The notes under the pieces are model-generated. The model saw nothing but the letters and a program-made list of their open reading frames with translations, was not told the origin of the DNA and made no database searches. The position numbers were made by a program, and so were the translations under genes. From Tomocerus qinae (lineage: Eukaryota > Arthropoda > Collembola > Entomobryomorpha > Tomoceridae), in contig CM034546.1 in NCBI GenBank assembly GCA_020055645.1, positions 29,202,001 through 29,266,000 of the forward strand: 64,000 bases of DNA. The letters run 5' to 3'. The first letter of the stretch is position 1, and each line of letters opens with the position of its first letter. Shown piece after piece: positions 18,073-60,187 of the stretch.

Positions 18073-18576
18073 CCTGAAACAGTGCCGCAGCCAGGGGACA
18101 TCGAAGAAAAGAATGGAATTTTTGCCTTTAAACCCAAAAATTACAGGTATTAGGCCATGGCCATTTAGGTAATGAATTCATTTTCCTTTCCAAAAAAAGG
18201 ATCTCCGTGAAACGTACTAAATGGATGCGTTAATGATAGTTGAATTTTCAAAAGTTTACGACTTATTACAAATTGGTCTGAGTATTTAGGTTTTTCATTT
18301 TCGGTCACGGTCCACGGTAGATTATACATACCATTATTTATGATCCCGCCTCCCTTGTAAATTGTAAATATGTACCAACGCCAGATTGCTTATAAGAAAT
18401 CCTCAATCATCTACTAATGACTGACTAAAAGCATTTAATTTTTTATCGCAAATTACTATGTCTAATAACGACCTACCCCCAATCTGTCAAAACTAAAATG
18501 TCAACAGAGCAAAAAAAATCGAAAACACCTTTTGTCAACACCAGTGTTATTGATACAAATAGTCAAAATTAAAGTA

Positions 18577-19609
18577 AAGGGTGTCAAACTAGGATTCAGG
18601 CCCTATGTATCTAAAGAACCGTAAGTAGCACGACAAAACCGTTGATACCAATCGAAAGCCCGTGCAAAGTTACATTGAAACACCGGTTTTCATCAACTTA
18701 TTCCTACGCATTCGCTTACACCAGCAGTTCTCCCAAAAAAAGTTGAAAATATAAAGAAATTACTAGCTAATTCGTGACCAAATCTCTCGCGGGGGCTGAA
18801 TTTAGGCAGCGGTACTGTGTTGCCACTGTTTTCGCTGTTGCCGCTGGGAGGTATGGGGGTGAGCGGCAACAGCATGACAGTGGAGACAGTGGCAAATACG
18901 GCAACAGTGGCGACACGCTAGAACCCCTGGCGGCAACAGTGGCGACATGCTACAACCACTTGCGGCGACACGCTACAACCACTTGCAGCAACAGCGGCGA
19001 CACGCTGCAACCACTAGCGGCAACACTGACCAGCGGCAACAGAGACACATTAATCTGGTTTCCTCTGTGTTGCTCTTGTCTTAGAGCATTGAGCTCAGAG
19101 CAACAGTGCACTGGCTTATATTAGGTTTAGCGGCAACAGAGGAAATCAGATTAATGTGACTCTGTTGCCGCTAGTGGTTGCAGCGTATCGCCGCTGTTGC
19201 CGCAAGTGGTTGTAGCGTGTCGCCACTGTTGCCGCTAGTGGTGTTGCGTGTCGCCACTGTTGCCGCCAGTGGTTGTAGCGTGTCGCCACTGTCTCCGCTA
19301 TTATGCTGTTGCCGCTCACCCCATACCTCCCAGCGGCAACGGCGGCAACAGCGGAAACAGTGGCAACACAGTACCGCTGCCTAAATTCAGCCCCCGCGAG
19401 AGATTTGGTCACGAATTAGCTAGTAATTTCTTTATATTTTCAACTTTTTTTGGGAGAACTGCTGGTGTAAGCGAATGCGTAGGAATAAGTTGATGAAAAC
19501 CGGTGTTTCAATGTAACTTTGCACGGGCTTTCGATTGGTATCAACGGTTTTGTCGTGCTACTTACGGTTCTTTAGATACATAGGGCCTGAATCCTAGTTT
19601 GACACCCTG
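18577..19609. mobile_element. Palindromic fold-back element with GC-rich internal repeats
   Basis: Two arms of about 285 bases (18577-18858 and 19320-19609) are near-perfect reverse complements, starting AGGGTGTCAAAC and ending GTTTGACACCCT. TA dinucleotides lie directly outside (18575-18576 and 19610-19611). The inner 460 bases are imperfect tandem repeats built on GCGGCAACAGTGGCGACACG, and these too are inverted about a centre near 19095. Open frames on both strands here reflect the repeat and are not genes. Confidence 0.8.
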
Positions 19610-20219
19610 TACTTGTTCTAGATTAATCCAAAATTAAATAGGCAATGAAAATACTGAGTAAGATTTATGGTTTAGTAACCATAAAATAAGTCCTTGCTAA
19701 CACATTGTTTGAGTAAAAAATAAATTAAGTCAAATTAAATACGTCATATAAGCTGTAAGAAAAGTATCATGAATATTTTAAGATTAGCAACGGTATAAAT
19801 CCACTCAGAGAAAGACAGTTTGGATTTGTTTCGAATAATTTTTAAAATTTTTTAGAATATTGTGCAGCCTGAAGATCATTTTTGTTAGGAAAGGTTTGCT
19901 TTACAATGATCCTATCTAATGTATTTTCGGATCTGTGCTGCACGTTTTGTAGCACATCCAGGAATTTCCACATGCTAGCCCGACTAGTAAGCATTTTCCT
20001 ATTAAACCAAATTTTCCGTCTTCTTCAATAACAATGGCACTACAAGCACTACAAAACATGTATGTACATGTAAGTGCAATATTGTCACTTATATGTACAT
20101 GTTCATGTGTTGACAAAAAGGTTACTATGTGTTGACAAAAAGTGATTTCCAAAAAAAAGTTGTTGATAAAATGGTGTTGACAAAAAGGGGTAGGCCCCTA
20201 ATAACAATGAAAGAATTAT

Positions 20220-21154: not shown

Positions 21155-21414
21155 TCATAATATACTTAAAATTGAAGAGTCTGCAAACAGCAACCATCGA
21201 TGAGGAAGCTGACCCATTAATTGGGTTTCAGGTCTGGCCTTGTATCGGAAACATGTTAAACATTTGTTAATGACACTCTTGATAGTTTTTGTTGCATTCG
21301 GGATCCAGTAGCGTTGACGAATATGTCCGTTTATTGTTTGTTTTCCTGCATGAGCTAGAATGACGTGAGTGTGAAGAATCATCGCTCTTACCAATGGATG
21401 GTTTCCTGGTAGTA
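21155..21414 (-). pseudogene. BEL/Pao integrase zinc-binding domain, inverted relative to the core
   Basis: Read on the minus strand, this stretch encodes the HHCC zinc-binding region typical of BEL/Pao integrases: two His in HTHVILAHAG, then the CLTC pair, followed by the short LP-containing linker that normally leads into the catalytic core. The core itself follows on the opposite strand from about 21440. The two domains are therefore head to head, and the segment between about 21155 and 21414 has been inverted. The frame continues upstream of its first ATG (minus strand) to about 21414 with family-typical sequence. Confidence 0.7.
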
Positions 21415-21421
21415 ATATCGG

Positions 21422-23761
21422 GTGTTTTGTTGCAAACGGGATAGGGGCATTTCTCCTGCCAGATTCAGTGATATTCGTCCATTTTTACACTGTGGTGTGG
21501 ATTTGGCCGGACCATTCCTACTTCGGAACCTCACAGGCCGTGGAGGCCCCTTCAAGGTGTGGCTGACTCTCTTTATCTGTATGAGCTCGAGGGCCATACA
21601 TTTGGAAATCGTATCTTCAATGTCAATTGACGGGTTTCTATTGGAATTTCGACGTTTCATTTCTCGAAGAGGACGGCCCTCTCATATGTATTCAGATAAC
21701 GGTACCAACTTCGTTGGAGCAAATAATCGTATGGACGACTTTCACGAACAAATGAAAACAGCCATACAAACAAGGAACAAGATATTACCAGATATTGAAT
21801 TCGAGAAAATCGTATGGCAATTCAATCCACCAGCAGAACCCCATAAAGGCGGGTCCTGGGAGTCTGCGGTAAAATTGGTCAAAAATCATCTGAAAAAATT
21901 GATCGATAATGACATTTACAAATACACCTGGGCAGAATTTGAGACTATAACCACATTTGTCGAAGCAGTAGTCAATTCTCGCCCATTAACAGCAATATCT
22001 GAAGATCCAAGAGATTTAGACGTATTGACACCAGGACATTTTCTTATTGGCCACACCCTCACCATGAACCCAGAACATGACGTAACTCATTTAAAGGAGA
22101 ATCGTTTGGATAAATATCAACGAATTATGCGTCGACATCAAGAAATCTGGAAGAGATGGGAAAAGGAATACATATTATCCTTACAGAAAAGGCAGAAATG
22201 GATGTCAAAACAAGCAAATTTAAAAACGGGAGATTTAGTCTTAGTAATGGAAGACAACCAACCACCACTTCAGTGGCGAACCGGCAGAATAAAAGCAGTA
22301 CATCCCGCAAAGCACGGTCTTATTCCAGTTACTACGGTAGAAACTCAAAGTACGTATGACGAAAAAAGGGGTAAAATTCAGAAAACGGTGAAGGAATTTC
22401 TAAGACCAATTTCCAAATTAGCAAAACTGCCGGAAGATGACTTCGATGGTCCAATGCTACCACATGAATTGGAAGACAAACCAACAGCAACAGATTCAAA
22501 AGTTACGCATATAGCCCATGAAAAAGGATACTACGAAATGGCAAAACTATATCCAAACCAAAGCCAGAAATCATCAGCATGGCCGTGGATTTATACCGCT
22601 GTGGTCATGGTCTTAGCAAACGTTCAACAAACGTCGGCCACAGAAATTGACCAGAATAAGAAAATCAGATCATGGTGGACTACTACCATGGTATTCTATT
22701 GTGTGATTATATTCGCCATCCTCGGATTTATTGGCAATACGATAACCTTAATAGCGATCAGCCGAACTCCACAACTGAAAAAGAACAAATTCAATTGGCT
22801 AATAATGAGTCTATGCTGCTCAGACTTGTTGTATAGCAGTGTGACACTTCCAATGACAGCAGTAAGATACTACTACGATGCATGGATGTTAGGACCCTTC
22901 ATGTGCCAAGTTTATGCATGGTTTCTATACGGAAACTTGTGTTGCACATTGGCTAATATCCTCACAATATCATTCAATAGATATGTGTGTATAGTACATC
23001 ACTGGGACTATTATTATTTATTTTCCAAATATCGTATGTGGTTCATGATCATCGTTACCTGGGTTTTAAGTTTTTTAATGGTCACGCCTCCAGCAATAGG
23101 AATTTGGGGGAAATTAGGCCCCAAGCCAAACAACCCAGCTTCATGCTCTATAATTCCAGATAAATACGGTCAATCCCCAAAGAAAATGATTTGGATAGTA
23201 GAAATTTGCTTTCCTACTGCAATCATTATATATTGTTACGCACGAATTTTCTTCTACACACGGAAAATAAGAAGACAGGTCGGCACTTTAACTAAAAGGT
23301 CCATTACTGGATACGAAGAAAGAAACAAGGAGGAAAAACAACTATTTCGAATGATTTGTTTCGTATTCCTTGGATTTTTATTCAACTTTCAGCCTGTCAT
23401 TATCCTAAATTTGTACGACCCGAAGAGAGAAAAAGTATCTAAGTTAGTACATATCGGAAGTGCACTACTTGTATGGTCCTCCTCGTGGACAAATGTACTG
23501 ATCTATGCGATTTCAAACCCGCAGTACCGCAGTGCATATAAGAAATTACTATTACCAAGACGCCGTCTCACTGCAACCCACTCCTCAACAAAAATTATAA
23601 CTACAACTATAATATTACTACTGATTGGATCAGGAATGGCAACGTTTCATCAAACTCAGCCAAACCTCTCGAAACTAGCCTCTCCATGTGAATATGAGTG
23701 CCACCACATCATGAAATTCCAGAATGTACAAGCACTATCTCTTAGCTACATACAAAAATAA
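21422..23761 (+). CDS. BEL/Pao integrase core fused in frame to a Tre1/Moody-type class A GPCR and an Env signal segment
   Basis: One uninterrupted 779-residue frame. Residues about 10-330 are a BEL/Pao integrase core with acidic residues D27, D91 and E146 in the expected motifs (GVDLAGP, SDNGTNF, GGSWE), followed by its C-terminal region. Residues 385-400 form a hydrophobic stretch. Residues about 415-712 (22664-23557) are a complete rhodopsin-like receptor: N438, D467, C494 paired with C574, NRY at 518-520, W546, P597, P657 and a TM7 motif NVLIY (690-694) where NPxxY is usual. The NRY triplet and the loop after TM4 (GIWGKLG) point to the Tre1/Moody family of guidance and barrier receptors. 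Residues 722-744 are a further hydrophobic segment leading into Cys-rich Env-like sequence. The receptor is intronless, as expected for a captured cDNA. The frame ends just before a frameshifted Env continuation. Confidence 0.85.
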   Translation: MFCCKRDRGISPARFSDIRPFLHCGVDLAGPFLLRNLTGRGGPFKVWLTLFICMSSRAIHLEIVSSMSIDGFLLEFRRFISRRGRPSHMYSDNGTNFVGANNRMDDFHEQMKTAIQTRNKILPDIEFEKIVWQFNPPAEPHKGGSWESAVKLVKNHLKKLIDNDIYKYTWAEFETITTFVEAVVNSRPLTAISEDPRDLDVLTPGHFLIGHTLTMNPEHDVTHLKENRLDKYQRIMRRHQEIWKRWEKEYILSLQKRQKWMSKQANLKTGDLVLVMEDNQPPLQWRTGRIKAVHPAKHGLIPVTTVETQSTYDEKRGKIQKTVKEFLRPISKLAKLPEDDFDGPMLPHELEDKPTATDSKVTHIAHEKGYYEMAKLYPNQSQKSSAWPWIYTAVVMVLANVQQTSATEIDQNKKIRSWWTTTMVFYCVIIFAILGFIGNTITLIAISRTPQLKKNKFNWLIMSLCCSDLLYSSVTLPMTAVRYYYDAWMLGPFMCQVYAWFLYGNLCCTLANILTISFNRYVCIVHHWDYYYLFSKYRMWFMIIVTWVLSFLMVTPPAIGIWGKLGPKPNNPASCSIIPDKYGQSPKKMIWIVEICFPTAIIIYCYARIFFYTRKIRRQVGTLTKRSITGYEERNKEEKQLFRMICFVFLGFLFNFQPVIILNLYDPKREKVSKLVHIGSALLVWSSSWTNVLIYAISNPQYRSAYKKLLLPRRRLTATHSSTKIITTTIILLLIGSGMATFHQTQPNLSKLASPCEYECHHIMKFQNVQALSLSYIQK
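22664..23557 (+). other. Captured GPCR segment within the retroelement polyprotein
   Basis: Sub-feature of the 779-residue frame, marking the seven-transmembrane receptor. All seven hydrophobic segments, both extracellular cysteines and the cytoplasmic NRY are present. No intron interrupts it, although class A receptor genes in arthropods usually have several. Its expected cell location is the plasma membrane or a viral or vesicle envelope. Ligand and G-protein coupling cannot be read from sequence. The P-to-V change in the TM7 motif could alter signalling. Confidence 0.85.
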
Positions 23762-25101
23762 ACGGAACTCTTTGCTTTCGAAATGTCACATGCGATCTCG
23801 GAAAAATGATTGCACCTGAGGGCACTTCATGCTTGAATGTATCCAACGACGCACAATGCAAGGAATTTAAGGAGTCTACATTAGATGACCTGGAATGCCA
23901 GTCACATTTTACAGCTCCAGATCCGGCGTTATTCTATCAAGACGATGTCAGATCACCACTATGTGCCGTCGGTGACCATGTCCTAAAACATTGTCAACAT
24001 TTTACCGAGCAGTATGAAAACGTTCCCGTAATCATTCAAGACGGGCAATTACACCCGCTTCTAAAATTGAATCTACAACAAGACGCCCGAAAAGAATCTT
24101 TTGAGTCATACACTTGCAAGGGTTCGTGTACAAAAGAGAAATGTACCTCCAAACAATGCAAGGGTGACAAATTATTCTGCGAACAGTTTGGCCGCACTAA
24201 CGAAATTCGAGCTAATTGCGAATGTCGTTACAATTCTTCAACGCTTCTTCACCGCATGATATCCCCCTTGGGCGATTTTTACCCCCAATGTTGGGGCACA
24301 ATGAGGCTGTTTACCCGAAAGGAAGATTTAAGTCATTCTCAAACAGTATATCCATGCGCAACGTGTAGCATTGAGTGTACTAAAACCGGTCTTAAAATTT
24401 CAACCCCCGGAATAGTAGCCAAATACATAAAAGCTCAGAAAAACCCTAATTTTGTGTCTGTAGTTCCAACCTCATTTGAGACAGCCTTACAGCTAACCAA
24501 AAGTATGTCAAGCTCTCCAGGTAAATTACAAATAGAAATTTGGGTACTTGATTATGATTCCCCGACAATTAGATCAATAACATGCCCTCGAATCCCCTTT
24601 TGTGAATTAATTGATTGTCATTTTTGCGCAGACCGATGGAGAAATTTCTCCTGCTACACTTACATCCAATACGTGATTATAGCAATAGCCACACTAACTC
24701 TTTCCTCAATTATTTTTACGGTAATATATATCTCGAAAATTATTTGCACCCTGTTACGGTGTATATCGTGGCCTTTACGAATTGTTATACAATTCATGAG
24801 GGCGGGGAAAACCCGCCCGAAACCAATTACTAGAGAATCAGATGATAATATTGGGACCCCCCTTATAGAAGTAGCCCCACATATATCCACACCTATAGTC
24901 GAAGCTCGAAACGAAACTCGTAGCGCACGTCGAAACTCAACACGGGTACGCCGACGAGACTATTTGCCCACAAGACTTTTGACTATTTTTTCCCTATGGG
25001 TATCCATTTTCTTATGTTATGGGTGCTCAGATTTTGCATCCATTTCCGCCCAATCCAAGGAATGTCACTATGCCTCAGATACTACAACAACAAAGCTATA
25101 A
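23746..25101 (+). pseudogene. Env-like cysteine-rich glycoprotein of the BEL/Pao element
   Basis: The 431-residue frame from the ATG at 23806 is open upstream to 23746 and continues, one frame over, the Env-like end of the previous ORF. The two are separated by a stop at 23759-23761, so a frameshift probably broke a single env gene. The ectodomain (about 1-283) has more than 20 cysteines in C-x2-4-C patterns and NxS/T sites. A transmembrane segment lies at about 286-314, a long basic tail has a cluster RVRRR (380-384), and a second hydrophobic stretch is at 391-407. This layout resembles the first glycoprotein of phlebovirus-like Env polyproteins carried by some BEL/Pao elements. The second glycoprotein is absent because the frame stops 24 residues after the second hydrophobic segment. 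Family assignment is tentative. Confidence 0.55.
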
Positions 25102-25129
25102 AAACATGGACCATATGTTATCCAAATAG

Positions 25130-25137
25130 TATATAAG
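25130..25137 (+). promoter_or_regulatory. TATA-like box before accessory ORF A
   Basis: TATATAAG lies 70 bases before the ATG at 25207 and matches the octamer in the candidate 3' LTR at 28382. A polypyrimidine tract ending in TTTGCAG directly before the ATG could also serve as a splice acceptor for a subgenomic message. Both readings are inferences. Confidence 0.35.
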
Positions 25138-25206
25138 AATCTCGACTTTTGTCTTAGAATTAAGTCCGTAATAAATTAATAAGTAGTTCCATCCGGTCTT
25201 TGCAGT

Positions 25207-26206
25207 ATGGATACCTCTCAACACTTTTTCAACGGAACTATGGAAGAACTCGAATTTATTTTAAACACTCCCAAAACTCCTGCAACCATGGTACCTTCAC
25301 CTGATATCGCTCCTTTACCATGGTCCCCATTTTCGGTACCCCCTTTAACAGTAAATAACGAAATTGAAAACACAACTTCTACTCTTGAAGCAGAAAAACC
25401 ATTGGTTTTAAGCAACCATACCTCTACAGTCCCAGAATCTAGTAAAGTGCTAGTTGTGAACGCATCCACAAGTGAAAACAGTAAACCCCCAACAACCACG
25501 ATAGTTCCCACCAGTCCTACAAAAGAAATCATAAATCTTCTTACTACTCCTCCATTGATAGACATAAGCTCGATAATTGACGAATTTATAACCTCTGAGT
25601 CCACCCAACAACTAAATTCACAGTCCTTCAGCGAAGCGATACTCCAAGATGCAGAACTCAACCAAATAGATGATTATAACATCGTGATTAATTCTAAAGT
25701 GCAAGAAAATTTGGAATTACGGCGCAAAATCATTAATCTGGAAAATACGATATCTTCTAATTCTCAATTCGCAAGCATGCGAGCTACCCGTATACGATTT
25801 CTAGAACGCTATGTATTAGAAATACATAATGAGAAAACCAGAATCCAACACATACTAAATACATTACTGCACCCTGGACCTTCCGCATCGCATCCATTGA
25901 CAAACACTAGCTGCCCATTATCTGGCAGAGAACGTATGAATCACGAAGACATTAATTTGATTTTATTGATTTGAATTTGAACATTAACATTCGAATTAGA
26001 TTTGGAAAACGTACGTAATTAGACACGTAGAAGCATTGGCGACTATACAGTCCTTACAAAAACAGATAAAGAGCATGCGGTTACGTATTTTTCCAGCTCA
26101 TAGGAAAATAAACTCTAAAAAGAGTAAACCTGTTCCTACTAAACGGACAGAAATCCCTACAAAGGGAACCACAAGAAAACAAACGACATCTTCAACCGCA
26201 AACTAA
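25207..26206 (+). pseudogene. Accessory ORF A of the retroelement (Ser/Thr/Pro-rich plus coiled coil)
   Basis: The intact frame (25207-25974, 255 residues) has a Pro/Ser/Thr-rich, acidic N-terminal half (about residues 1-130) and a helical, coiled-coil-like segment (about 150-215). After the stop, a second frame remains coding-like from about 26010 to the stop at 26204-26206. It encodes a helical Gln/Lys segment and a basic Thr/Lys-rich tail that could bind nucleic acid. A single frameshift near 25960-26000 would explain this. No known family is recognised. Its place, 3' of env, is that of accessory or regulatory genes in complex retroviruses. Confidence 0.5.
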
Positions 26207-26218
26207 TATATATAAATA
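26207..26218 (+). promoter_or_regulatory. TATA-like box before accessory ORF B
   Basis: TATATATAAATA directly follows the end of ORF A and lies about 230 bases before the ATG of ORF B. AT-rich context makes a chance occurrence possible. Confidence 0.25.
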
Positions 26219-26441
26219 CTTCCAGTTAAAAACACAACCACCGCTAAATGAACTGCTTATATTGCACTAAGGAAATATTCTGTTTAAACAAAAGTATGTC
26301 ACAAGGCTGTATTCATACTAATAATTCTTAATTCACCTTTTATTTTGTAACCAGTGAAGAAGTTCCTCAATAGTTCATTCACATCACGTTGGTTATCCAG
26401 ACTTGTTCTTCTTACCGATTTGCTCTCTCTTCAATCTTAAA

Positions 26442-27814
26442 ATGGATCTAATTCTTTCAAGCTACGATAGTGACAGTGATAGCAATAGTTTCCTGTCTCT
26501 AGAAGATGGAAACTGTATACCTACAAACGCTGACAATTCCGACAAAAAGTACGCTGAATTGCTTCAAAAATATAACTATGTGAAACAGTGGAATAGACAG
26601 TTTTGAGCCAGTTATATTGAAGTAAGTGGAAAATACAATGTTGCATTAAAGATACAAAGTGAAGTGGAACCAATAGTTACACAATTATGTGATTTGGTTG
26701 AATCTACCAACCAGCGGTTGGAAAGCACAAATGAAAAATTAGTGTTAACAACCGCCGAACTCATGAAGGTTACCTGTGCCCATGAAAACAATAAGGTTAC
26801 AATAAAACTGTGGCAAGGCCGATACGGTAACGAGCAACAAAGACTTCAGGAGAAAACAACTGATTATCTCATCCTAGAACAGAACCATGACGTATGGATT
26901 AGAGAACATAAGGATCTCCAGGAAAACCATCAAAAACTCGAGGGTGTGAACGAGACTCTCCAAGCAGATATCGTATACAAGGATGAAAGATATGCCAACT
27001 TACAACGTGCCATTGCCGATCTTAACAGCAGTTATGATGAGGTCAATGATAACCATCATGATCTTAATTTACAATTGGAAGAAGCAGTGGCTCAGAACGC
27101 AGTACTCCAAGCTGAAATTGACAGAATGAATAAGGAAAAACTCCTAAGTCAAATTGAAATTCAATCCTCACGTAACAACCGAACAAAATTGTGTGCTAGG
27201 TTTAAAAAAGTAAAAATGACTATTCAGACCTACAGAAACTAGCAAAAGGGTTTGAGCAGGCCGGTGCTCTCTTCAGAGCTGAGAATAAACCACTCCAACA
27301 ACAGCTACGGGACAATAAACCTGAAGGCCAATTTCTTCTTCGGGAACAATTAGAAGCCAAAGATGAAGAAATTGCTCATCTCTCCCAATCTCTTAGGAAA
27401 AAGCAGACTGAGATTTGGGAACATCAAGATGACTTCGCTCGTCAAGTTTTAGAAAAAAAGAAGGTCCTAAAAGCAAAGGCTATTGTCCAAGCCAAATTAG
27501 ATGACACAAAAATGGTCCTGGAACATACACAGGAAGGATTGGAAATACAAAATGAAGCCATCTCTAATCTCCAAACCGAGGTATCACTCACGCGGCAAAG
27601 ATGTGTGCGACAATACATCCGTCGTGCTAAAGTACTGACCACCATCAGAAGTGATAATCTTCAAACCCGTGCACTTCACGCCGCAAGAATCACATTGCGA
27701 AACGCACAACGAGCCCGAAGAGATATTGGCATTCACAAGGAATATCGTCACGTTTTCATACAAAATTTAAATCAACGTCGTCTTCTACGCTCTCGACGAG
27801 ACTTTGTTAATTAA
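26442..27814 (+). pseudogene. Accessory ORF B of the retroelement, long coiled coil with basic tail (broken)
   Basis: The frame starts at 26442 with a short acidic Ser/Asp-rich stretch, meets an in-frame TGA at 26604, and resumes in the same frame to 27242. It shifts frame near 27210-27230 and then stays open to the stop at 27812-27814. Ignoring the two lesions, the coding-like span is about 457 codons. Most of it shows heptad-like Leu/Glu/Gln/Lys composition (26610-27560), and the last 80 residues are Arg-rich with repeated RR and basic-aliphatic motifs. No family is recognised. The layout suggests an oligomeric nucleic-acid-binding protein. The intact parts retain strong coding character, so the breaks are probably recent. 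Confidence 0.5.
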
Positions 27815-27968
27815 CATTTATTATCATTGTGGTTTTCCTTTCTTCCGTTTCTTCAGTATTTTATCACATATCTACTTATTCTTAGACTCAAACTAATATC
27901 GTTCTTTAAGTATCATTGCTTATCATATCTTGTATTTATCAATTTTTTGTCTTCTTTTACGGTAACCC

Positions 27969-28449
27969 AAAGGCCGGGAGAATATTATATTATGTACGTA
28001 GTCTTAAAGTATTATATTAATAAGACGTAGTCTGTAAATAGGTACCTAAAAATATATTTATTGCTGACTCTCAACCGCACATATGCATGTAGTAAATAAA
28101 GTTTTGTTTTCCTTATAGCTATACAACAGAATCAGTGCACTATGTATAATGTATTTACGCTATTGTTAAGTATAAAGTATAAACTGATTTTCCTTGACTA
28201 ATTTAGGTTAAATTATTTTCCTTAAACAGCCCTAAATCAATGAACTCCTTTTTATCCTTTCTTTAGACTTTTATGTGTTAGATATTAGATGATAATTAGG
28301 TTAGTCACTAACCACTAGTTAAAACTTATTTTATGTAACACTTTTATCCATTTTACTGGAACAAACATCCTGTAACCATAGTATATAAGCCTGTACTTTA
28401 ATCGAAATAAATATTTTAAGTTTCACTCTTAGTTTCACCCTTCTTTACA
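27969..28449 (+). repeat. Candidate polypurine tract and 3' LTR of the BEL/Pao element
   Basis: A purine-rich tract (AAAGGCCGGGAGAA, 27969-27982) is followed by a non-coding stretch of about 467 bases containing a TATATAAG box (28382-28389), an AATAAA signal at about 28405-28410 and a terminal TACA at 28449. This is the expected order for an LTR after the last ORF. No matching 5' LTR exists in the window because the left half of the element is missing or rearranged. Boundaries are therefore tentative. Confidence 0.4.
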
Positions 28450-28550
28450 AGGTTTTATTTTCATACACATACGTATAGACTTTTCAATTTACTGGTCAGA
28501 ATCTTCGGGACATTTTCATTATTCGTATATTGCAAGATTCTGCATACCAT

Positions 28551-28830
28551 TTTAAGCATCGACTATAGGCCGACGGATCGTATAGTAAATTGTAATCATC
28601 GACTATAAGCCGTCAGATTGTATATTAAATTATAATCATCGACTGTAAGCCGTCAGATTGTATAATAAATTGTAATCATCCACTATAAACCGACAGACTG
28701 CATTTTAAATTGTAATCATCGATAATAACCCGTCGGAATGCAACTTAGTTTGTTATTTTCGACTATAAACCGTTGGAAACCTAAATTAATTGTTATCCTC
28801 TACTATACGCTGTACGTTTGAATGTATCCC
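28551..28830. repeat. 40-base minisatellite, 7 copies
   Basis: The unit (TCGACTATAAGCCGTCAGAT... followed by an AT-rich half) recurs with exact 40-base spacing at 28561, 28601, 28641, 28681, 28721, 28761 and 28801, with increasing divergence to the right. Confidence 0.9.
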
Positions 28831-31110: not shown

Positions 31111-33180
31111 ATGAGGTTTCTCACTTTATTTATTGTTGCTACCTTTGCATTCGTAGCATCTGGTCATACAGAACACTCATTTGATAACGGAAACTATAAT
31201 GTTTTAACTCATAACAATGGGAATGGAACTATAGATTTTTTTATCACGGTGAAAACATTAGGATGGGTAGGGATAGGTGTTGGTCCTAATCCAAATATGA
31301 CAAACGCAGATATTGTCGTTGGAGGGGTTTTAGATAATGATACTGCCTACTGGACTGTAAGTTCAATAACAATGTTGTAATAAATTTGTAATTCAAAATT
31401 ATTTTCAATTCTTAAAATTATTGGAATAAAAATATAATGGAAGGTGTTTGTTATAACTCTATTTTTAATAGGGTATGTATGCAACAACGAATGGCCGTCC
31501 AACGCCGGATAACAAAACAGAGTCAGATTGGGTTTTGCTGTCTTCAAGTCAAAATTCTGCATTAATTAAAACTTATGTGGCGTTCAGAAGGCTTCTCAAG
31601 ACTGATGACAGCAACGCCGGACAGGATTATGAAATCAAGGTAGCCATTCATTTATTTAAGCACAACGGCAATTGCCACTCTGAAACTGTAACCTAACCTA
31701 GCACTTTAAACTTTTTAAAATTATTTTTCTGTTTTTAATTCAATATTTTTGTAAAGAATGAAGATTTTTATCTGATATGTGCTTAGTGCTTATGGCCAAA
31801 CCGACACATTTAATTACCATTCGTCGTCGAGATGGTCTACGAAAGTCAATCTCCTGCAAGAAGGTATTTTAATTATTACTAAATAGTGTATAGGTATATT
31901 TAGTATAATTTATTATGTTAGTATACATACAAATTTCCTGTCAGCATTCTCGGACATTTATTTAAATGCTTTCTATATTAGGTACCCCAGGAGAAAATGA
32001 GTTTTCGTTTGGCAACGGTGCTTACAATTTAAAGACCATATCAGACGCAAATGCTGGTACGATTGAATTTCATGTTACAGTGGAAACTTTAGGTTGGGTT
32101 GGAATTGGTGTAGGACCTAACCCAAATATGACCAACGCTGATATTGTCGTTGGAGGGGTTTTCGATAGCAATAATACTGCTTACTACAATGTAAGACATT
32201 TCTTCTTGATTTAATGTTTTCAATAATTTATGTGTAAGGATCAGGAGAATGCGACATTAAATTGATAAAATTTATTATTTCTAATAGGATATGTATGCTC
32301 CTACGGATGGCCGTCCATCTCCAGATAATAAAACAACCTCCGATTGGGTTTTGATGTCTTCAAGTCAAAATTCTACATTAAATGTAACTTCTATGTCATT
32401 CCGAAGGTTTCTCAAAACAAATGACAACAACGCCGGACAGGATTATGAAATTAAGGTAACGAACCAAGTATAACTAAACCCTTGTAGACGGCAAGATTAA
32501 AAGATCCCCTCCTAGTATGCGCCGCTCCACCCTCCCATCTTTAGAGTAGGTTAGGTTAGGATATATTTGGTTAGGTTAGTAAGGTGAGGCAGGTGGACGC
32601 CACGCCTTAAGATGTGGATTTTTAGTCTGTCCTCCTTTTGGGCGACATAATATGTATACATTGTAAAATAAAAGTGATCTGATATAATACCATAAAATTT
32701 GTCAACGTTACTATTTTTTAAAGAATGAAGATTTATATCTGATATGTGCTTATGGACAAACCGACACATTAAGTTACCATTCGTCATCAAGGTGGTTTCA
32801 GAAGGTCAATCTCTTGCCACAAGGTGTATTACCTACAACAACAGAAAATACGATAACGACTACAACGCCAAGCAATGGAGGAGGTCGTTTATTGATATAA
32901 TTGTAGCGTACAACATCATTTTTGTGTCAGTATTTTTGGTTATTTCGGCTTTATTGAAAATCTATGTAATATTACAACAGGAGAAAATATTTTTTCGTTT
33001 GACAACGGTGCCTACAATTTAAGGAACATATCAGACGTAAATGTTGGGACAATTGAATTCCATGTTACAGTGAAAACTTTAGGATGGATTGGAATTGGTG
33101 TGGGTCCTAACCCAAATATGGCTAACGCTGATATTGTTGTCGGAGGCGTTTTCGATAACAATAATACTGCGTACCACAAT
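31111..33180 (+). CDS. Secreted multi-DOMON-domain protein (spliced, tandem domain units)
   Basis: Exons: 31111-31356, 31472-31639, 31757-31863, 31982-32190, 32288-32455, 32724-32900 (stop), and an alternative continuation 32724-32823 to 32981-33180. Introns are GT-AG with matching phases. Residues 1-18 form a signal peptide. Each DOMON unit uses three exons: a first half with the core TLGWVGIGVGPNPNM, a middle starting at (G/D)MYA, and a third with CAYGQTDT. Units 1 and 2 are complete and unit 3 has only its first half. Exon 32724-32900 can read through into a Thr-rich tail and stop at 32898-32900. In exon 3 of unit 1 a duplicated 7-mer (TGCTTAG-type, about 31780-31793) shifts the frame and creates a TAG. 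DOMON domains bind haem or sugars in other proteins. No monooxygenase domain follows here, so the function is unknown. Confidence 0.7.
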
Positions 33181-34600
33181 GTAAGACATTTTTCGGCACT
33201 CGGCTAGATATGGCCGGACAAATTATAAATGCCATCTCTATTTGTATTACCTGTACTAAACCTTAGAGTGCAGACCGGAGCAAGTAACCGTATATAATGG
33301 AAGAGGGAGTTTTACCTAAAATCCAAGTATTGCTGAATTCAAATATATGCTAAACCATAAAAATTCTAATAAGCAATAAAAATAGTTGATAGTGTGTTGA
33401 ATGTATCAAATAATGTGCAATCTATCAAAACAAAACACATAATTAACATCCCAATATGTATTTTCAAAATGACATATGCGCATATAACTAAAAAGGTTTG
33501 TCAAATTCCTCAAATTTACAAGACTCAAATGAGTGACAAACTTACCAGAGCCAAAGTGCGTAATGTGGTTATATTACTCTACTTGGGGAAATTGATGATA
33601 TCATTGAAGAAATAGATTATAAATTTTTCTTTGAAGTTCAGTAAATGCTTCTAATTCAATGTTCAATTTCATTTATGTTATAATGTTTATCCATGAATAA
33701 TAACATTAATTTCATTCCCAAAACAGTAACTCAATAAATATTGTGTCACTTAACATGATTATTAATTATGGGTTCATATTTGTGCTAATTAATTAGCTTC
33801 AAAAAATTACGATTATTACTGTAGCTCCAAGGATACTATAAATTGGCATCACTTCTAAATTATTGAAACATATTATGATTACACATTAGATAACAGAAGT
33901 CATTGTCGTTATTTAATTTTTAGTTATTTATTATAAACATTACATATAAAATGTTTAAAATTAGGTTGTAAGTTCATTGAACATTAGCATGCAGGCCCAT
34001 ATCATATCGATGTGTTAAACGATTACTTGTTCCGGGCTGCACTCTTTAGTATAATACAATAGAAACTCAACGGAAAAAACTATGAAAGGTGTTTAGAGAG
34101 ACGCAGTCGTAGATTCTGTTGTTTTATGAGAACACTAATTTGCATCGGTGACCTCATATATTTTTTTACGCTCTATCCAATGGTGAAGGTTTAAAAAAAT
34201 TGTACGATGCATTTTTGTGTTCTAGCTAAGAGAACATAAGTAAAATAACGGTAGAACGGCTAACTCTGGCCGGTGATCGGCTACTTATTTTCTACTGAAC
34301 GGCTACATTTGGCCGACTGACCTCAGAAACGGCTAATACTGGCCGATTTTCAGCTACTTCTAGCCCGGCAATCGGCCATAGTTTCCTTAGTGGTCCTGAC
34401 TGATTGTGCTCAACATCACCATCCCACCTTATTATCTCGATGTTTGGATGGAACGGATGGATGGATGGGGTGAATGTGATGGGTATAGTAGCCCGCCTGG
34501 ATGTTAGTGATGGTTTAATTTTTTGGGTGTTCGTGAAGGATGGGTTGGTTGTCACATCCTTGGAGTGGATGTTTACTCACAACTACGATGCTCTACATTA
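33181..34600. other. Intergenic, no gene recognised
   Basis: The missing second and third exons of DOMON unit 3 are not found here. A motif patch at 34250-34385 repeats CGGCTA and GGCCGA words, possibly a short mobile-element end. The frames at 33394 and 34404 are not supported by composition. Confidence 0.45.
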
Positions 34601-38963: not shown

Positions 38964-41792
38964 ATGAAGCATTTAGGTCAGAATTGTAGTTTTTGTGTGG
39001 CACACAAACAAATGTTTTTGAGTCCAGTCTCCAGGGGTAAATGTCAAGGTCCTCAGTCGCATTCCACCAAAGCAGATAGACATATTTCATTTGATCTTTT
39101 TGTTTCTCGTTGCTTTCACAATCAAAGTTTGGTTCATTTGATTCCAGGATACGGTATTTGTAGACACTGTGAAACCCTTATCAAAAAAGGTTGTGATAGA
39201 TTTCAAAAATTGAATGACCTGTTTGGTAATTGCGGGTTACAAAAAATAAATATAGGAAAAACTGTGGATGCTGACAAGGTAAAAAGTATCATAGAATGCA
39301 AAATTGCAGAACTTTTAGATAAGGCAATAGGTTTGGCTAAGGAATGTCCTAAGTCGGATGGGGATGCATTATTTGAAGAGATAGGGAATTATGTAAAGAA
39401 CACAAATTCTAGAGTTGATAAACTCCATGCTTTAACTTTGCATGTTGGAGCTTAGGACAACTTCAACAATAGTATGGGGTAGGTAAGCAGCTTGCGAAGA
39501 AAGCATTGAAATTGAAATCGGAGAAGGGCTTATTGGCGACTCCAGAAGCAAAAAGGGGGAAAGGTATATTGAAGCACGTTAGACAGTATGTGATAGATTT
39601 TTATCGTTCTGATGAAATCTCTCGTTGCCTTCCAGGATTACATGATGTTGTCACCGTTAACAAAGAAAAACTCACCAAACGGCTATTATACTATAATGTA
39701 GGAGAGTGTTACCAGTACTATAAACAGGAAGTAGACAAAAATAGCATGGACAAAGATTACAGCACAGGTAAAGCTAGTTTCTTTGCATTACGGCCTAAGG
39801 AGGTAATTCCTGCAGCTATAAATGGTATCCATAATGTATGTGTGTGTACGCTTCATGGAAATCTGGAATTAATAAGCCATGCTCTGAAACAGAAACGGAA
39901 ATACTGTTTAGATCTTTAGACGCTTTTGGTCTGTGACATCTCAAACGCTGATTGCATGCTGTTTACTGTTTAAAATCACTGTTTAAAGTGTAAAGTTAAG
40001 GGGCCAAATAATATGTTGACGGTTAAGGACTACTTCCCTCTTAACACTTTGAACACAGCTTCGCAACGGGCCGTTCACATAGTTGGTCAATCTATGAACG
40101 AAGCCGCTGCAACGCAAGGTTGGCGTATTTAGGATGTAATGCGGGATTAACCAGGAATGAGAATTTGGTGGTTTGGGGCAAGGAGATATGAGATAATATG
40201 AGCTGATGATTGTTACTTATGAATGAACCCTCAACTTTCTCGGCAATGCATTATGAGTAGGGAAATCTCCCTGCGATGAGATAAGCGTTTTGGATAAGCG
40301 TACAGAAGCGTGTAGTAGCTTATTCGAAAGACCGCAAAAAGTACTAGGGCACTTGACAGCCCTTTTTTCCGATTTAAAATTAGAAATAGGAAAAAAGACA
40401 CCATATTTCGCAGCTCAATGTAAATTCGTACTCAATTTTTTTAATTTCAAAAAAAGATTAAAAATACTTAAAATTTTTTTTTCAAAATTCCGGCCTTCAG
40501 GTGCCCTAGGCAAAAACTGGAACTTTCAGAATATAACTGTTTCAAAGCTATAAGTTGACCCTGTGACCTGTTCTCATCGCAGGCAAAAGGGGGAAGCCAC
40601 CCTTAAGGAAAAGATTAAAAATGATGCTTTATTAAAGTCTGTATCATTTCCCATCACAATCCCTCAATGGAAAAAAGTTGATAGAGCAGAATTAGTATCT
40701 ATAGAACTAAATCTGGATGAGTTTTGCAAAAAGTTATTAGATGATCTCCATATTATGAAGTCTCATCATTTCATTGTAAAGACCCAATCTCAAAATGCGA
40801 AGGATTTAAGGGAAACTGTTAGTGCAGATGAGATTGTTTGTCACTTAGATTTTGCTGAAAAGTATAAAACGCAGGTTCAAAATGAACCGCAAATGGCCCA
40901 CTGGAGTCCATTTGTTTTTTACTTTAAGGATAAATTAATTGAATATGCCAAGTCCTTAGTGTTAGGTTTAAAGAAGATCCATTATTTGTCAGATGGCTGC
41001 TCAGCGCAATTTAAGAACAGGTACAATTTTTTAAACCTATCCTTTCATGCTGAGGATTTTGATGTAGAAGCTGATTGGCACTTTTTCGCTAGTCAACACG
41101 GTAAAGGTGGTGTTGATGGCATTGGAGGCACGACAAAAAAATTTTTGAGAACATACAGCATGCAATGTAAGGAAGGCGAGGGCTTGCAATCCCCAAAGAG
41201 TTGTTTTGAGTTTTTAAATGGAAAATCTGATATTGCTACTAAACCATTATGGCTGTCTTTAATTGAAGTCGAGGAATTAAATTTAAAGTTTGATACGCAA
41301 ACCCGATTTAATGATTGCAAAGTAGCTAAGGGTACAAGAAATGCTCATTTCATTAAATCTTTGGGAAAGGGTTTAGTTAAGTTACATCGGACTTCCATTC
41401 ATTCTTCCGAAAATTACATTTGTGTATTAAAGAAGTGTTCTATAGAAAATGACGTCAATGTTAACTTTGGGATTGATTTAAATGACGATGTTGAGGTAGG
41501 TGATTTTGTTGCGGTGGCATCTAAGAAGTCATGGAGCATAGGCAAGGTAGAAGATTTGAGGCATGAGACTGTTGAATTTAGCATTATTTTTTACAACGCC
41601 TCTGCAAATAGTTTGACTTTTAAGTTAGGCACATCTGAAAGGAAGCTTTGGGTTTTGGGCGAAAATATTTTGTGCAAAATCGTTCCTAGCCATCAAAGTT
41701 CACTTCGTAGGCAAAATATTGTTACTTTTGCTGATGATACAATCAAAGACATTAAAGCACGTTTTCAGAACTGGAACCGGTTGATTAGATAG
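38964..41792 (+). pseudogene. Transposase-like gene of an unclassified family, plus-strand copy
   Basis: Coding pieces: 38964-39455 (Cys-containing N-terminal module, RHCE motif), 39506-39919 (matching the N-terminus of the minus-strand copy: FRS/YED-type start, ISR-LPGLHD, SFFALRPKE, HNVCVC) and 40563-41792 (409 residues). The last holds a possible RNase-H-like core with acidic motifs HLDFAEKYK and YLSDGCSAQFKN, then FFASQHGKGGVDGIGGTTKK, and near the C-terminus an SH3/Tudor-like barrel starting GDFVAVASKKSWSIGKV. About 45 residues present in the copy at 49715-50935 are missing between the two acidic motifs. Frames change between pieces, and 39920-40562 is not open. Such proteins are widespread in arthropods and hydrozoans as uncharacterised repeats. 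The DDE reading is my inference. Confidence 0.6.
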
Positions 41793-42546: not shown

Positions 42547-43735
42547 AATATTCCCCGGCGATTATGTAAAAATTCTCACATTATTGTGAATGAATTTCGT
42601 GCCGACTCAAGCATGCCCCGTAGAGAAATGTCTAGTTTTTCTTCGTTTCAACCTCGACCAATATTCACTTCAGAGCCGGAATTTTGTCCTTGATACGATA
42701 ATAGAATATTTAGAGAACTACTTCTTTAGCCCTGACCAAGTGTGCCATACTTAAGACTTTTGTCGCAACTGTGAATAACTGTTTGTTTTAGTATGTACCA
42801 TGAGCATCTGGAATTCATCTCTGACGGTGTAGCGCAATCCAAACGCGAGAGTTTTTCTTGAACATTGGGCACTCATTTAAGTATTATAGATACTTTAGGT
42901 CCTAAAACGTGTTAATTTTAAATAGACCTTGTCTTATACATATATATTGTTGTGTGTTGGAGGTTTTGTGGTTCATATGGCATTTGTCTGAAGTGTTGAT
43001 GATTGTGAGATTTTATGTTATTTTTGGGTGAACTTGAAATTTGGTTATGGTTTTTGGGTTTCATTTTTCTTCTTTAACCACATAGGTGGTGTAGTTAAAC
43101 TCGGGGATATGGTGGCGGATTTGTTAGATATGGTAACTGAGAGGTTAATAGATTAGTTAAGTTTAGATAATTTGTTTGAATGTGCGTGTGTTTATTTTTA
43201 TGTTTGGTACGGTATTGGAGCGTTTATGTGGTGGTATGTCTTGGATGTTTAGGGTTGGTGAAGGGGCTTATATCCCCGAGTAGCCTAGTTTGCTGCAAGC
43301 CCTGACACTTTTCCCTTTACATTTTATGCCATACCACCCATTTACAGTTTCAAGTAGTTCAAGATCGGTTTGTTATGAAGTAACTTTATCTTATAACTTA
43401 ACGCAAAATGTAGTGAGCTCATAACCCCATTTTTGCGCATTCATATGTAGCTAAGCCATCGAAACTTTGAAATTAGGAAAGCTCATCTTCATATGTCAAC
43501 TAGCCTAGTTTTGTTAATCATCGCTCACAAGCATTGGAGAGGGTGGGATTTGAACCCAATACCCTTGACATACAGACAAGTTACTGTTATGCATCGCCAT
43601 CAATGCTCATGTAATGAATGGGCGCTATATCTTAATGATAACAGAAACTGTATTATATTGGGAATAAAAAAATTATAAGTTTTGATGTTAAAAACTTAAA
43701 AATGATTAGAAAATATTGATAAGAAATCATTTCCA
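42547..43735. other. Intergenic, no gene recognised
   Basis: AT-rich with G/T-rich stretches at 42960-43280. At 43541-43562 there is a sequence matching a Pol III B box on the minus strand (GGGTTCAAATCCC), but no A box at proper spacing or cloverleaf was found, so no tRNA is called. Confidence 0.4.
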
Positions 43736-43737
43736 AG

Positions 43738-44578
43738 TATAGATTCCAATTCATTGAAAATAGATTTTAATTCATTGAAAATAGATTTCAATTCATTGAA
43801 AATAGATTTTAATTCATTGAAAATAGATTTCAATTCATTGAAAATAGATTTTAATTCATTGAAAATAGATTTCAATTCATTGAAAATAGATTTTAATTCA
43901 TTGAAAATAGATTTCAATTCATTGGAAATAGATTTCAATTCATTGGAAATAGATTTCAATTCATTGGAAATAGATTTCAATTCATTGGAAATAGATTTCA
44001 ATTCATTGGAAATAGATTTCAATTCATTGGAAATAGATTTCAATTCATTGGAAATAGATTTCAATTCATTGGAAATAGATTTCAATTCATTGGAAATAGA
44101 TTTCAATTCATTGGAAATAGATTTCAATTCATTGGAAATAGATTTCAATTCATTGGAAATAGATTTCAATTCATTGGAAATAGATTTCAATTCATTGGAA
44201 ATAGATTTCAATTCATTGGAAATAGATTTCAATTCATTGGAAATAGATTTCAATTCATTGGAAATAGATTTCAATTCATTGGAAATAGATTTCAATTCAT
44301 TGGAAATAGATTTCAATTCATTGGAAATAGATTTCAATTCATTGGAAATAGATTTCAATTCATTGGAAATAGATTTCAATTCATTGGAAATAGATTTCAA
44401 TTCATTGGAAATAGATTTCAGTTCATTGGAAATAGATTTCAATTTATTGGAAATAGATTTCAATTCATTGGAAATAGATTTCAGTTCATTGGAAATAGAT
44501 TTCAATTCATTGGAAATAGATTTCAATTCATTGGAAATAGATTTCAGTTCATTGGAAATAGATTTCAATTTATTGGAA
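43738..44578. repeat. 21-base minisatellite, about 40 copies
   Basis: A 21-base unit (ATTGGAAATAGATTTCAATTC) repeated about 40 times with few changes. The first nine units carry GAAAATAGATTT and alternate between TTTTAATTC and TTTCAATTC; the later ones are homogeneous. Because 21 is divisible by three, both strands are open for 290 codons (a heptad-like peptide in each). Nothing indicates a real gene: no promoter, splice sites or non-repeat coding sequence. Confidence 0.95.
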
Positions 44579-45238
44579 ACAAGCCTCTTAGCGGGTTGGA
44601 AGTGGATTAAAAATAGATTCTTTTAGAATTTTTAAGTGGTGTTATATGCAGTTGCTCCTACCCCCCTCCTTCAAGTGTTCTACAATGTCAATGGATAGCC
44701 CCTATTTTCCTCCAAATTCACCGTTTTTTCAAAATTCATTTCCTGATTACTGCACAGAGTGCCAAAGACCGATAGATTTCATTCCTCAAATATAGTTCTT
44801 TGGTATACAGTTGGAATTTTTCTTGGCACTTTGTGCGTTTAGAAATTATGAAATTCCAAAAAATTTCGATCTTTTTTGAAAAAAATGAATATTTCTTAGG
44901 TATTTTACATTATGGGGATTATGGAAGTCACAAATTAATAGTAAATACCTAACACACCTAAGATAATTGTGACTTATTCCCGTTTACTAACACTGGATGA
45001 GTGTTTTTCAAAAAATTTTCGAAATTTTAGGACAAAATCGAAATTCAGATTACTCGGTCAATTTTTAATTTAGGACGCCCAGATTTTTTGCAAATGGGCT
45101 CAAAATTCTCCCTTCTTCATTTAGTTATAGTTATTTTAGGAATGGCAAGTCTTCAAAAAACAACTATTTGAATTTAGCTACTAATGGCTGGAAAGCCCCT
45201 GGATAATTTGTGAAATTTCTAGTTTAATAGATAATAAG

Positions 45239-47340
45239 GTGTTATACGTTGGAATCGTGTACATACAAGGAGATAACGGTCACCTGAATAGAATTCAGCA
45301 GTTGAACAGAGTAACAGAAAACCTTCAGATGCTGAATTCTATTCCAATCCTTCTGGGAGGCGATTTTAATGCTCGTATTGGACAATACCAAAATGAGGAA
45401 TTGTATTATAAATCGCACAATATTCAGCACAGGCATTCTCAGGGCAAAGTATGTAACAAAAACGGTGAAAATTTAATCGATCTCATAGAAAATAATGACC
45501 TGATAATATTAAATGGGGCCACAGTTGGGGATCGTAATGGGGAGTTTACGTTCGTAAATAATAACGGTAAAAGTGCAATCGATATTATGTTAACCAATAA
45601 ATATACAGCAGGCTATACAATAGATTTCAAGGTGCTAAATATAAATGAATCTTTTCATTTCCCAATAGTGATAACTCTGTTCGCTAACAGACAATGTAAA
45701 GGGCGGAGAGAGAGAAAAATTAAGTGGAAAAACGATCACTCGAAGGAATTCCTAAGGAATCTGAACTCACTCACGGATAACATTCAGGATTGCAAAGCAT
45801 TGTGTTACAATATCCAAAAAGTGGCGATAACATCAAAAATGGTCGGATGGAGGAAAGAATACCCGGATGCAGTTTGGTTTGATTCCGTATGTAGAGAAAA
45901 GTTGAATCGCTGCAAAGAGAAATTCAAACTAGCAAAACGAGCGAATTGGAAAGAGCAGGAAGCGGCCAACTACGTGGAAGCCAAAAAGGATTACATAAAT
46001 TTTCGAAAAGCTAAAAAGAAAGATTTCTGGACCAAACAACGTAACAATATTAATTCTGACAAACCGGGAGCTGAATTTTAGAAAAGGGTAAAGTGTCTAA
46101 GGCGAAAACCGAATAGCAAAAATCCTATACGCTCTGAAGACTGGGAACGCTACTATCGTGAATTAATATCACATAAATCCCACTTTCTAGCAGAACTCCA
46201 AGACGCAGGACACCCAATGCTAACGACTCCAATAGTTATGGAGGAATTAGTTGCAGCATTAAAAAAGATGAAATGTAACAAGGCACCTGGGCCGGATCAA
46301 ATTACGAATGAATTCTTCAAAAGTCTCTCTGGTCCAATACTAGTTAAGTTGCTGCAGTTACTCAATGCTATACTAGAAGAAGAAACTCCACCAGAGCAAT
46401 GGGCAGAGTCGCTCACCGTAATGATCTACAAAAAAGGCCCTATAAACGACCCCAAAAATTACAGACCGATTGCCTTACTCAATACGGCTCTGAAGATCTT
46501 CACGCAAATACTAAATGAGCGCATAATTGTATGGGCTAATGTCAGTGAAATTCTCCCGGAAGCACAGGGCGGCTTTAGAAGAGGGAGAGGTTGCGAAGAT
46601 CAAATCTTTACATTAACCTCCGCAATTCTGATAGGAACAAGACAATCAAAAAAAGTATTCGCAGTGTTCGTGGATTTTGAACGTGCTTTCCCGTCCATTA
46701 AATTTAACTTACTTTGGGAACGATTATTTCAACTCGGGATGCCAGCAAAAGTTATCCGAACCCTAGAAAAAATATACTCGAAGGCCTCCACAAGGATCTC
46801 TATGGATAATGGCTTCGGAAAATCAAATCGAATTGATTTAAACGAGGGTTTCTTGCAAGGCGAAATTTTGTCGCCGATGTCCTTTTCTCCTTATACATAC
46901 ACGACATTGAGAAGATTGTTGTAGAAAAGGATTTTGGGGGCATTAAAATCTCGGACAAACTCATGTTGCACATACTTCTTTTCGCAGATGACACCGTGGT
47001 TCTAGCGAGTAATGCGACGAGTCTAAAATGCAAAATCCGGGCACTGCAAGCTTACTTCGAAAAACTTCAACTTAAAGTTAACTTAGGGAAAACGAAGGTA
47101 GTCATTTTCCGGAGAGGAGGTCCTCTTCCTAAAGGGCTGCAATTTCGTTATGAAGGCAAAGTGATTGACATTGTATCTGAATATATCTACCTGGGAGTGC
47201 CATTTTCTTCATCGGGAAAGTTTAGAAAAGCTGTGAAGTACTTCAAAACCAATGCGGCAAGAACACAGAAGTCTGTGAGTGAGCTCAATTTCAAAGGAAG
47301 AATAAGTAATTTTAAAGCTAAAGATGGTTTCCACGGCTAA
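45239..47340 (+). mobile_element. LINE (non-LTR retrotransposon) endonuclease and reverse transcriptase, broken
   Basis: Three pieces. 45239-46081 is the C-terminal part of an APE-type endonuclease (GGDFNARIG) plus linker. 46217-46924 is the RT fingers and palm (NKAPGPDQI, NYRPIALL, GGFRRGRG, VDFERAFPS). 46963-47340 is the RT palm and thumb with the catalytic FADD box and the LGV(P) motif. Frames are interrupted at 46081 and 46924. Homology stops near 47329. The expected next segment (thumb and C-terminal domain) occurs at about 53085-53949. Clade not resolved from motifs alone. The element is dead. Confidence 0.85.
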
Positions 47341-60092: not shown

Positions 60093-60187
60093 CAGTGAAC
60101 GAATCGGATTACAAGAAACAATGTTCAGTTTTGATTTACGTCGTACTAAATATTGTATAATATAAATCTAGCCACTGTGGCTCCTTT

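Follow-up and report, generated by a model that had tools for sequence, protein, structure and literature searches.

A Tre1/moody-type receptor between integrase and envelope in a belpaovirus family of the springtail Tomocerus qinae

Viral G-protein-coupled receptors (GPCRs) are known from large DNA viruses. Here we analyse a stretch of 64,000 nucleotides from the springtail Tomocerus qinae (contig CM034546.1; the whole stretch is hereafter the window), in which a copy of a BEL/Pao retroelement carries such a receptor between its integrase and its phlebovirus-like envelope glycoprotein, Gn. Like the GPCRs of herpesviruses, poxviruses and giant DNA viruses, it belongs to the captured cellular class A receptors, and Foldseek matches include swinepox, cytomegalovirus US28/US27, ORF74 and giant-virus receptors. 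Those receptors, however, reside in DNA viruses and share 8–19% identity with the element receptor, whose sequence kin are moody and Tre1.

The closest described elements are Atlas virus of the hookworm Ancylostoma ceylanicum and other nematode belpaoviruses, which share the BEL/Pao pol, a single long Gag-Pol-Env frame, phlebovirus-like Gn/Gc and an identical pair of long terminal repeats (LTRs). In contrast to the springtail family, their host is a nematode, the Atlas frame has 2828 residues as against up to 3472 aa, and the accessible part of the source mentions no receptor between pol and env (PMC9094657). Bdelloid rotifer LTR elements likewise carry extra cellular genes downstream of pol (a GDSL esterase and a DEDDy exonuclease), but these enzymes occupy a separate third open reading frame (ORF3), and the word receptor is absent from the accessible text of PMC5408684. 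Neither receptor nor phlebovirus occurs in the text of a BEL/Pao survey (PMC3118150), and our literature search, with most subscription papers and preprints outside its reach, found no reverse-transcribing element with a GPCR. No RNA virus and no reverse-transcribing virus is named among the 50 matches listed from BFVD (5 of the first 30 are nameless), and a receptor query of viral contigs gave two pattern matches and no relative. A protein search with the receptor region of the long frame recovered none of 555 candidates and, with the receptor alone, one opsin; its length filter bars polyproteins, and relatives in other species are possible.

Integrase, receptor and envelope in a recurring order

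The window ORF list holds an open frame of 781 codons at 21416–23761 on the forward strand, against 58 and 30 stops in the other two forward frames of 21422–23758. Within its 779-residue stretch, Pfam places DUF5641, the C-terminal part of BEL/Pao integrases, and 7tm_1 (residues 438–695) in the same frame (E values in Table 1). NRY starts at residue 519 and NVLIY at 691. This bears out a preliminary description made from the letters alone, which had read one frame running from an integrase into a seven-helix receptor with NRY, paired cysteines and NVLIY. Of the catalytic residues it named, D27 stands; D91 and E146 were each placed one position early, residue 91 being serine and 146 tryptophan. 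The next ORF, 23746–25101, is the one that matches Phlebovirus_G1.

Better preserved members define the class of the element. Separate pieces of one copy (L007/L031/L032 in our locus numbering) match Peptidase_A17 (8.2e-56), Integrase_H2C2 (5.3e-11), DUF5641 (2.9e-28), 7tm_1 (4.7e-39), Phlebovirus_G1 (3.3e-21) and Phlebovirus_G2 (1.2e-48); the match of L007 to rve, at 0.0016, falls under its cut-off. The joint presence of the peptidase, integrase and glycoprotein domains in one copy identifies a BEL/Pao element with a Gn-Gc envelope. The family has the Pao-type peptidase A17, the BEL-type integrase, LTR pairs and target duplications of BEL/Pao elements, together with the Gn (G1) and class II fusion Gc (G2) of phlebovirus-like envelopes, of which the window copy retains G1 only.

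The arrangement recurs across the T. qinae genome (334 Mb, 115 contigs). A search with the 779-residue frame gave at least 62 matches, a lower bound since 58 of 739 candidates were scored. Query residues 10–760 or more are matched in a single hit at no fewer than 10 places, the window included; seven of ten lack an internal stop, and open frames of up to 3472 aa are reported among the matching places. A receptor-only search returned 56 rows. By our own grouping these make up 41 loci, 13 of them host-type; subfamily A, with A-like loci counted in, accounts for 22 and subfamily B for 6. Fifteen of the 28 receptor-bearing, element-type loci (12 A, 3 B) are stop-free over the whole or nearly the whole receptor, one of them (C21, L018) through compensating frame slips. 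When the pieces around 20 loci were queried with integrase, receptor and Gn, all three lay in order at 18 (L001–L013, L017–L019, L027 and L047); L028 lacks the integrase in its 3-kb piece, and L026 holds a receptor fragment only. To the window copy, subfamily B is 38–45% identical in the receptor, 47–55% in the integrase and 31–38% in Gn. Common to A and B is the order integrase, signal-peptide-like stretch, seven-helix receptor, second such stretch and phlebovirus-like Gn.

Recurrence at many loci on several contigs is beyond chance and speaks against misassembly. Of the conditions that the preliminary description had named as fatal to its reading, neither this one nor a junction confined to one copy nor host introns in the receptor is borne out. 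It had also taken frame continuity at both junctions to argue against a late retrocopy. Continuity holds as a property of the family, the receptor sharing one frame with both integrase and Gn in copies such as L003 and L007; in the window it is lost just after the second signal-peptide-like stretch. That the receptor is an artefact or passenger, born of a chimeric assembly or drifting as a host-mRNA retrocopy in one old element, could draw on the rearranged and frameshifted state of the window copy. For the family it is refuted by recurrence on several contigs, two subfamilies, recent insertions and purifying selection, and we find it scarcely credible. Selection, and the shared junctions of two subfamilies that have diverged from each other, likewise rule out late insertion of a retrocopy.

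LTR pairs were present in six of seven copies examined. Among receptor-bearing copies, the two LTRs are 100% identical in L007 (657 bp), C7 (305 bp), L003 (588 bp) and L002 (in two pieces, with an insert in one LTR), and 98.1% identical in L006 (840 bp); those of the receptor-less L014 (587 bp) are 100% identical. The seventh copy, of subfamily B, has a 2.7-kb repeat at 99.8% in place of a clear LTR pair. Target duplications of 5 bp, with edges shifted by up to 2 nt by eye, are readable in L007, C7, L006, L002 and L014, and none was found for L003. The identical LTRs of some receptor-bearing copies imply recent insertion. The L033/L034 copy (C7:1274500-1294500) sits inside a repeat array with a period of ~175 bp, probably satellite DNA.

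Origin and constraint of the receptor

Seven helices, NRY and the cysteine of extracellular loop 2 (ECL2) are present, and class A membership is clear by homology and by predicted fold. An AlphaFold2 model of the L007 homologue reached a predicted local distance difference test score (pLDDT) of 91.6 and a predicted template-modelling score of 0.88, an earlier model built from nine sequences having been poor (pLDDT 49.4). The L007 model matches class A GPCRs in the PDB, including GPR84, and poxvirus, herpesvirus and giant-virus receptors in BFVD (Foldseek). With arthropod Tre1 and moody and mammalian GPR84, the element receptor shares NRY, a WG..G extracellular loop with a cysteine, SPK and the overall fold. 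It differs from them in its NVxIY in place of NPxxY, its lack of introns, an extra N-terminal signal-peptide-like stretch and a frame fused with pol and env. Both NRY and NVxIY occur in all 19 element loci read; at the NPxxY site of the aligned cellular-kin rows, NP stands in 96 of 123, with 20 gapped and 7 differing, two element rows among them.

By sequence, the closest solved structure is GPR84 (PDB, 8.9e-23). A profile search seeded in part with two host genes yielded 126 proteins; among the 120 listed, moody of Folsomia candida came first, followed by moody of other arthropods and one Tre1. Identity to most near-full-length cellular kin is 27–37%. These kin, with the recurring junction, uphold the earlier proposal that a Tre1/moody-type receptor was captured by a BEL/Pao element between integrase and env. 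Capture from moody itself is disfavoured, since the moody clade (90/93) leaves the element receptors outside; the host moody gene L058 groups with those of three springtails (Folsomia, Orchesella and Allacma) and a metagenome protein (100/98), which supports the springtail host that the preliminary description had guessed. The element receptors fall near host L022, host L056 and Diachasma Tre1 in a branching order that lacks resolution, in a tree set with one named Tre1.

In host L022 and L058 an exon break falls at N/RY, as in the Drosophila tre1 gene according to the accessible part of PMC2911388; the element copies run through the site with no intron. The captured source was therefore probably a spliced RNA, in line with the host mRNA first proposed. 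The timing implied at first needs correcting: two subfamilies share the receptor at only 38–45% identity, and the capture is accordingly not recent.

A and B receptors form one clade (support 95/92 in one tree and 99/97 in another), and placing A alone or B alone with host L022 is rejected (p = 0.004 and 0.003), which points to a single old capture. The integrase tells a different story. Its tree joins B with the receptor-less C type (85/91) and rejects A + B as one clade (p = 0.021), as would be expected from two captures, or from one capture and a receptor transfer between element lineages by recombination. Against either stand the A + B receptor clade at 99/97, the NVxIY and insertion place common to both, and a divergence in step across the element (to the window, integrase ~54%, receptor ~43%, Gn ~31–38%); we regard both as unlikely.

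Receptor-less relatives of the C type are L014, L015, L016 and L052. The second signal-like stretch and the start of Gn are homologous between L014, L015 and L052 and the receptor-bearing types (39.7–40.6 bits). The integrase tree, alone among these data, favours a receptor lost in C over one never there. In the D elements (L020, L021) the integrase leads straight to Gn. A further derivative has shed the enzymes: L063–L066, four copies on three contigs, are 99.1–99.9% identical over the 1.5 kb compared and have lost everything from reverse transcriptase (RT) to the integrase core. In L063, L064 and L066, the frame of gag-protease continues across the joint into the integrase end, receptor and env, while L065 is interrupted just before the joint between gag-protease and integrase end; L009, of subfamily B, has a comparable in-frame joining. 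These joins imply that neither RT nor integrase need accompany gag, protease, receptor and env when they move. A retro-copied spliced RNA was considered for L063–L066 and set aside, the upstream edge in two other copies being no GT donor; deletion or template switching is the likelier source of the joint.

Three overlapping, non-independent pairs of the closest subfamily A copies give the receptor a ratio of nonsynonymous to synonymous rates (omega) of 0.097, 0.067 and 0.067 (bootstrap intervals 0.037–0.183, 0.014–0.150 and 0.016–0.146), alongside 0.148 for the integrase and 0.116 for Gn (one pair each). Synonymous sites are saturated between subfamily A groups too. Nonsynonymous divergence (dN) between these groups is 0.12–0.19 for the receptor (0.061 for L007/L008), which falls between the integrase (0.08–0.115; 0.046 for L007/L008) and Gn (0.21–0.27). 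The receptor is thus constrained like the element's own genes, and these rates indicate that purifying selection preserved it intact as the elements multiplied.

The window copy and its surroundings

The copy in the window is dead: it is 5′-truncated, its head is inverted, its frame is shifted and its Gc is deleted (Table 1), and better preserved members exist elsewhere in the genome. By blastn against L003 it is colinear over 21450–25092 (96%) and, after a deletion of ~1.6 kb, over 25093–28554 (93%). No 5′ LTR was found within the window. Its integrase is 76–96% identical to that of other subfamily A copies and 47–55% to that of subfamily B. The first signal-peptide-like stretch lies in the same place in A and B, with an A–B residue identity of only 0.19, and is so called by eye and not by a predictor, being below the hydropathy threshold used. 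A hydropathy segment lies at the start of Gn, where the preliminary description had read an Env-like signal segment. Near 23700 the window frame departs from the Gn frame of the other copies, and the final stretch of ~19 residues up to the stop at 23761 is therefore out of frame.

Receptor-bearing copies of subfamily A carry an ORF X and a coiled-coil-like ORF Y between env and the 3′ LTR (L032, L034, L036, L038, L040), neither with a Pfam match above the cut-off; an ORF related to Y occurs in the L006 copy at 33%. Subfamily B has a different coiled-coil-like ORF after env (L044, L045), and tblastn found no X or Y homologue in the subfamily B pieces. No such ORF is present in the receptor-less L014 copy, whose env ends at L042:590 and whose LTR lies at 647.

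Table 1. Parts of the belpaovirus copy in the window, with window coordinates
Feature	Coordinates	Strand	Evidence
Integrase N-terminal zinc-binding (H2C2) region, inverted head	21202..21452	-	Pfam Integrase_H2C2 1.1e-11; 251 bp, blastn 98% to L003 1257-1507 (minus orientation), directly adjoining the plus-strand part
Integrase core and C-terminal DUF5641	21450..22420	+	Pfam DUF5641 1.1e-25; D27, D92, E147
Fast-evolving linker 3′ of integrase	22421..22570	+	34-83% identity among subfamily A copies
Signal-peptide-like stretch 1, ends ..SA/NA before receptor	22571..22639	+	By-eye reading
Captured class A GPCR (Tre1/moody kind): seven helices, NRY, paired Cys, NVLIY	22640..23578	+	Pfam 7tm_1 3.1e-35
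Signal-peptide-like stretch 2, start of Gn	23579..23641	+	Hydropathy segment, residues 725-743
Gn-like envelope glycoprotein	23642..25092	+	Pfam Phlebovirus_G1 2.6e-20; frameshift near 23700 relative to other copies
Deletion junction, ~1.6 kb including Gc gone	25092..25093	.	blastn breakpoints against L003 and L036
Accessory ORF X (MDTS..FFNGTMEEL..), shortened in window	25207..25974	+	Homologues in the same place in L003, L006, C7 copies and L007
Accessory ORF Y, coiled-coil-like, interrupted in window	26442..27814	+	Uninterrupted in L003 and L002 copies
3′ LTR	27982..28554	+	93.9% to LTRs of L003 and L002 copies over 587 columns

Elsewhere in the window, a foldback-type element consists of an inverted repeat (18572–18844 and 19342–19614) with 273-nt arms that are 99% complementary and 497 nt apart, with further internal inverted repeats. 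A non-LTR retrotransposon remnant at 45185–47340 retains endonuclease (2.4e-10) and reverse transcriptase (3.3e-16) matches. An ORF with a DOMON domain (32896–33207, 6.9e-10) lies near direct repeats at 31224–33157, and a long tandem array at 43696–44626 is open in several frames on both strands. By eye, a 677-aa ORF on the reverse strand (58134–60167) looks like an ionotropic-receptor-type membrane protein, with no Pfam match at 0.01. The ORFs at 40554–41792 (+) and 49715–50941 (-) have no Pfam match, resemble each other by eye (YHGK/QHGKGG..GGT) and are perhaps of one mobile element family.

A modified receptor and its proposed role in passage to the germline

We assign a probability of roughly 0.83 to a joint reading: the broken copy in the window belongs to an endogenous belpaovirus, its lineage captured a Tre1/moody-type GPCR once, before the A/B split, and the receptor serves as a modified signalling receptor that aids passage into the germline. 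Capture would most likely have come about by recombination with the spliced host mRNA during reverse transcription. The receptor would be made from the Gag-Pol-GPCR-Env frame or from a subgenomic RNA of that frame, and signal peptidase would free it on both sides; the order and topology of the parts fit a membrane protein produced within the long frame. It would then sit N-out, as a seven-helix protein, in the membrane of the producing cell and signal there as a modified receptor. The most likely benefit to the element would be an easier path to the germline from somatic or migrating cells.

In animals, receptors of this type direct germ cells and blood cells as they migrate across epithelia. 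A narrower proposal builds on this: the element would have stolen the receptor type for such transepithelial migration, kept its NRY arm, changed its NPxxY arm and used it to guide particles, or the cells that produce them, towards the germline, which we hold to be rather improbable. In the accessible parts of the sources, the NRY arginine is essential for Tre1-driven germ cell migration in Drosophila (PMC2911388), Rho1-dependent repolarisation requires the NPIIY of Tre1 (PMC6122984, citing LeBlanc and Lehmann 2017; Tre1 biology is further drawn from PMC10926455), and insect endogenous retroviruses with envelopes infect the germline from somatic cells (PMC12992720). With NRY kept and the NPxxY proline lost, a rewired and perhaps partly constitutive output is likely.

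Conservation by region bears on whether the receptor signals at all. Identity between A and B is highest in ECL2 (0.65); it is 0.60 in intracellular loop 1 (ICL1), 0.54 and 0.52 in transmembrane helices 2 and 3, 0.51 in helix 8 and 0.48 in NRY-ICL2. The receptor might instead be kept for binding, as a decoy for a host lipid or other cue or as a structural aid to assembly beside Gn-Gc. The prominence of ECL2, an ICL3 at 0.16 and the altered NPxxY in 19 of 19 loci would suit such a role; a pure decoy, however, would not need NRY, ICL1 and helix 8, which are kept on the inner face, and we judge the proposal unlikely, if worth keeping in view. Display on particles beside Gn-Gc, with the receptor steering entry or tropism through a ligand on target cells, seems quite improbable. 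The receptor does occupy the envelope end of the frame, flanked by the two signal-peptide-like stretches and adjoining Gn. Its nearest cellular kin, however, sense diffusible cues as far as known (medium-chain fatty acids for GPR84, according to the accessible part of PMC6122984), and the receptor-less relatives retain Gn-Gc.

Several observations weigh against the favoured account of a once-captured signalling receptor. Receptor-less relatives exist, one with 100% identical LTRs, which makes the receptor an accessory that the elements can spread without. Normal signalling could have gone with the NPxxY proline, and identity between A and B is low in ECL3 (0.19) and in ICL3, a G-protein contact. 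As to origin, the Gn tree does not decide the grouping of A, B and C (p ~0.33), and the C type has an extra hydrophobic stretch before the start of Gn whose likeness to the receptor start, as a remnant of transmembrane helix 1, is doubtful (~5 bits). The receptor trees indicate that the donor may be Tre1 or another non-moody paralogue. The omega values cover the closest subfamily A copies only, dS being saturated between subfamilies, and the sample is a single genome.

If the germline-homing proposal were true, a reverse-transcribing element would be known to carry a GPCR for the first time, and a virus would be directly hijacking the homing of germ cells. The family raises a testable question about the route of an endogenous retrovirus into the germline, and about whether a receptor of the germ-cell-migration family serves on that route. 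Receptor-bearing, receptor-less and RT/integrase-deleted, receptor-keeping relatives in one genome offer natural comparisons, and the NVxIY of all loci read is a structure–function probe of Tre1-type signalling. Here is a belpaovirus using the viral-GPCR strategy, and a captured GPCR under selection in a retroelement lineage widens that strategy to belpaoviruses.

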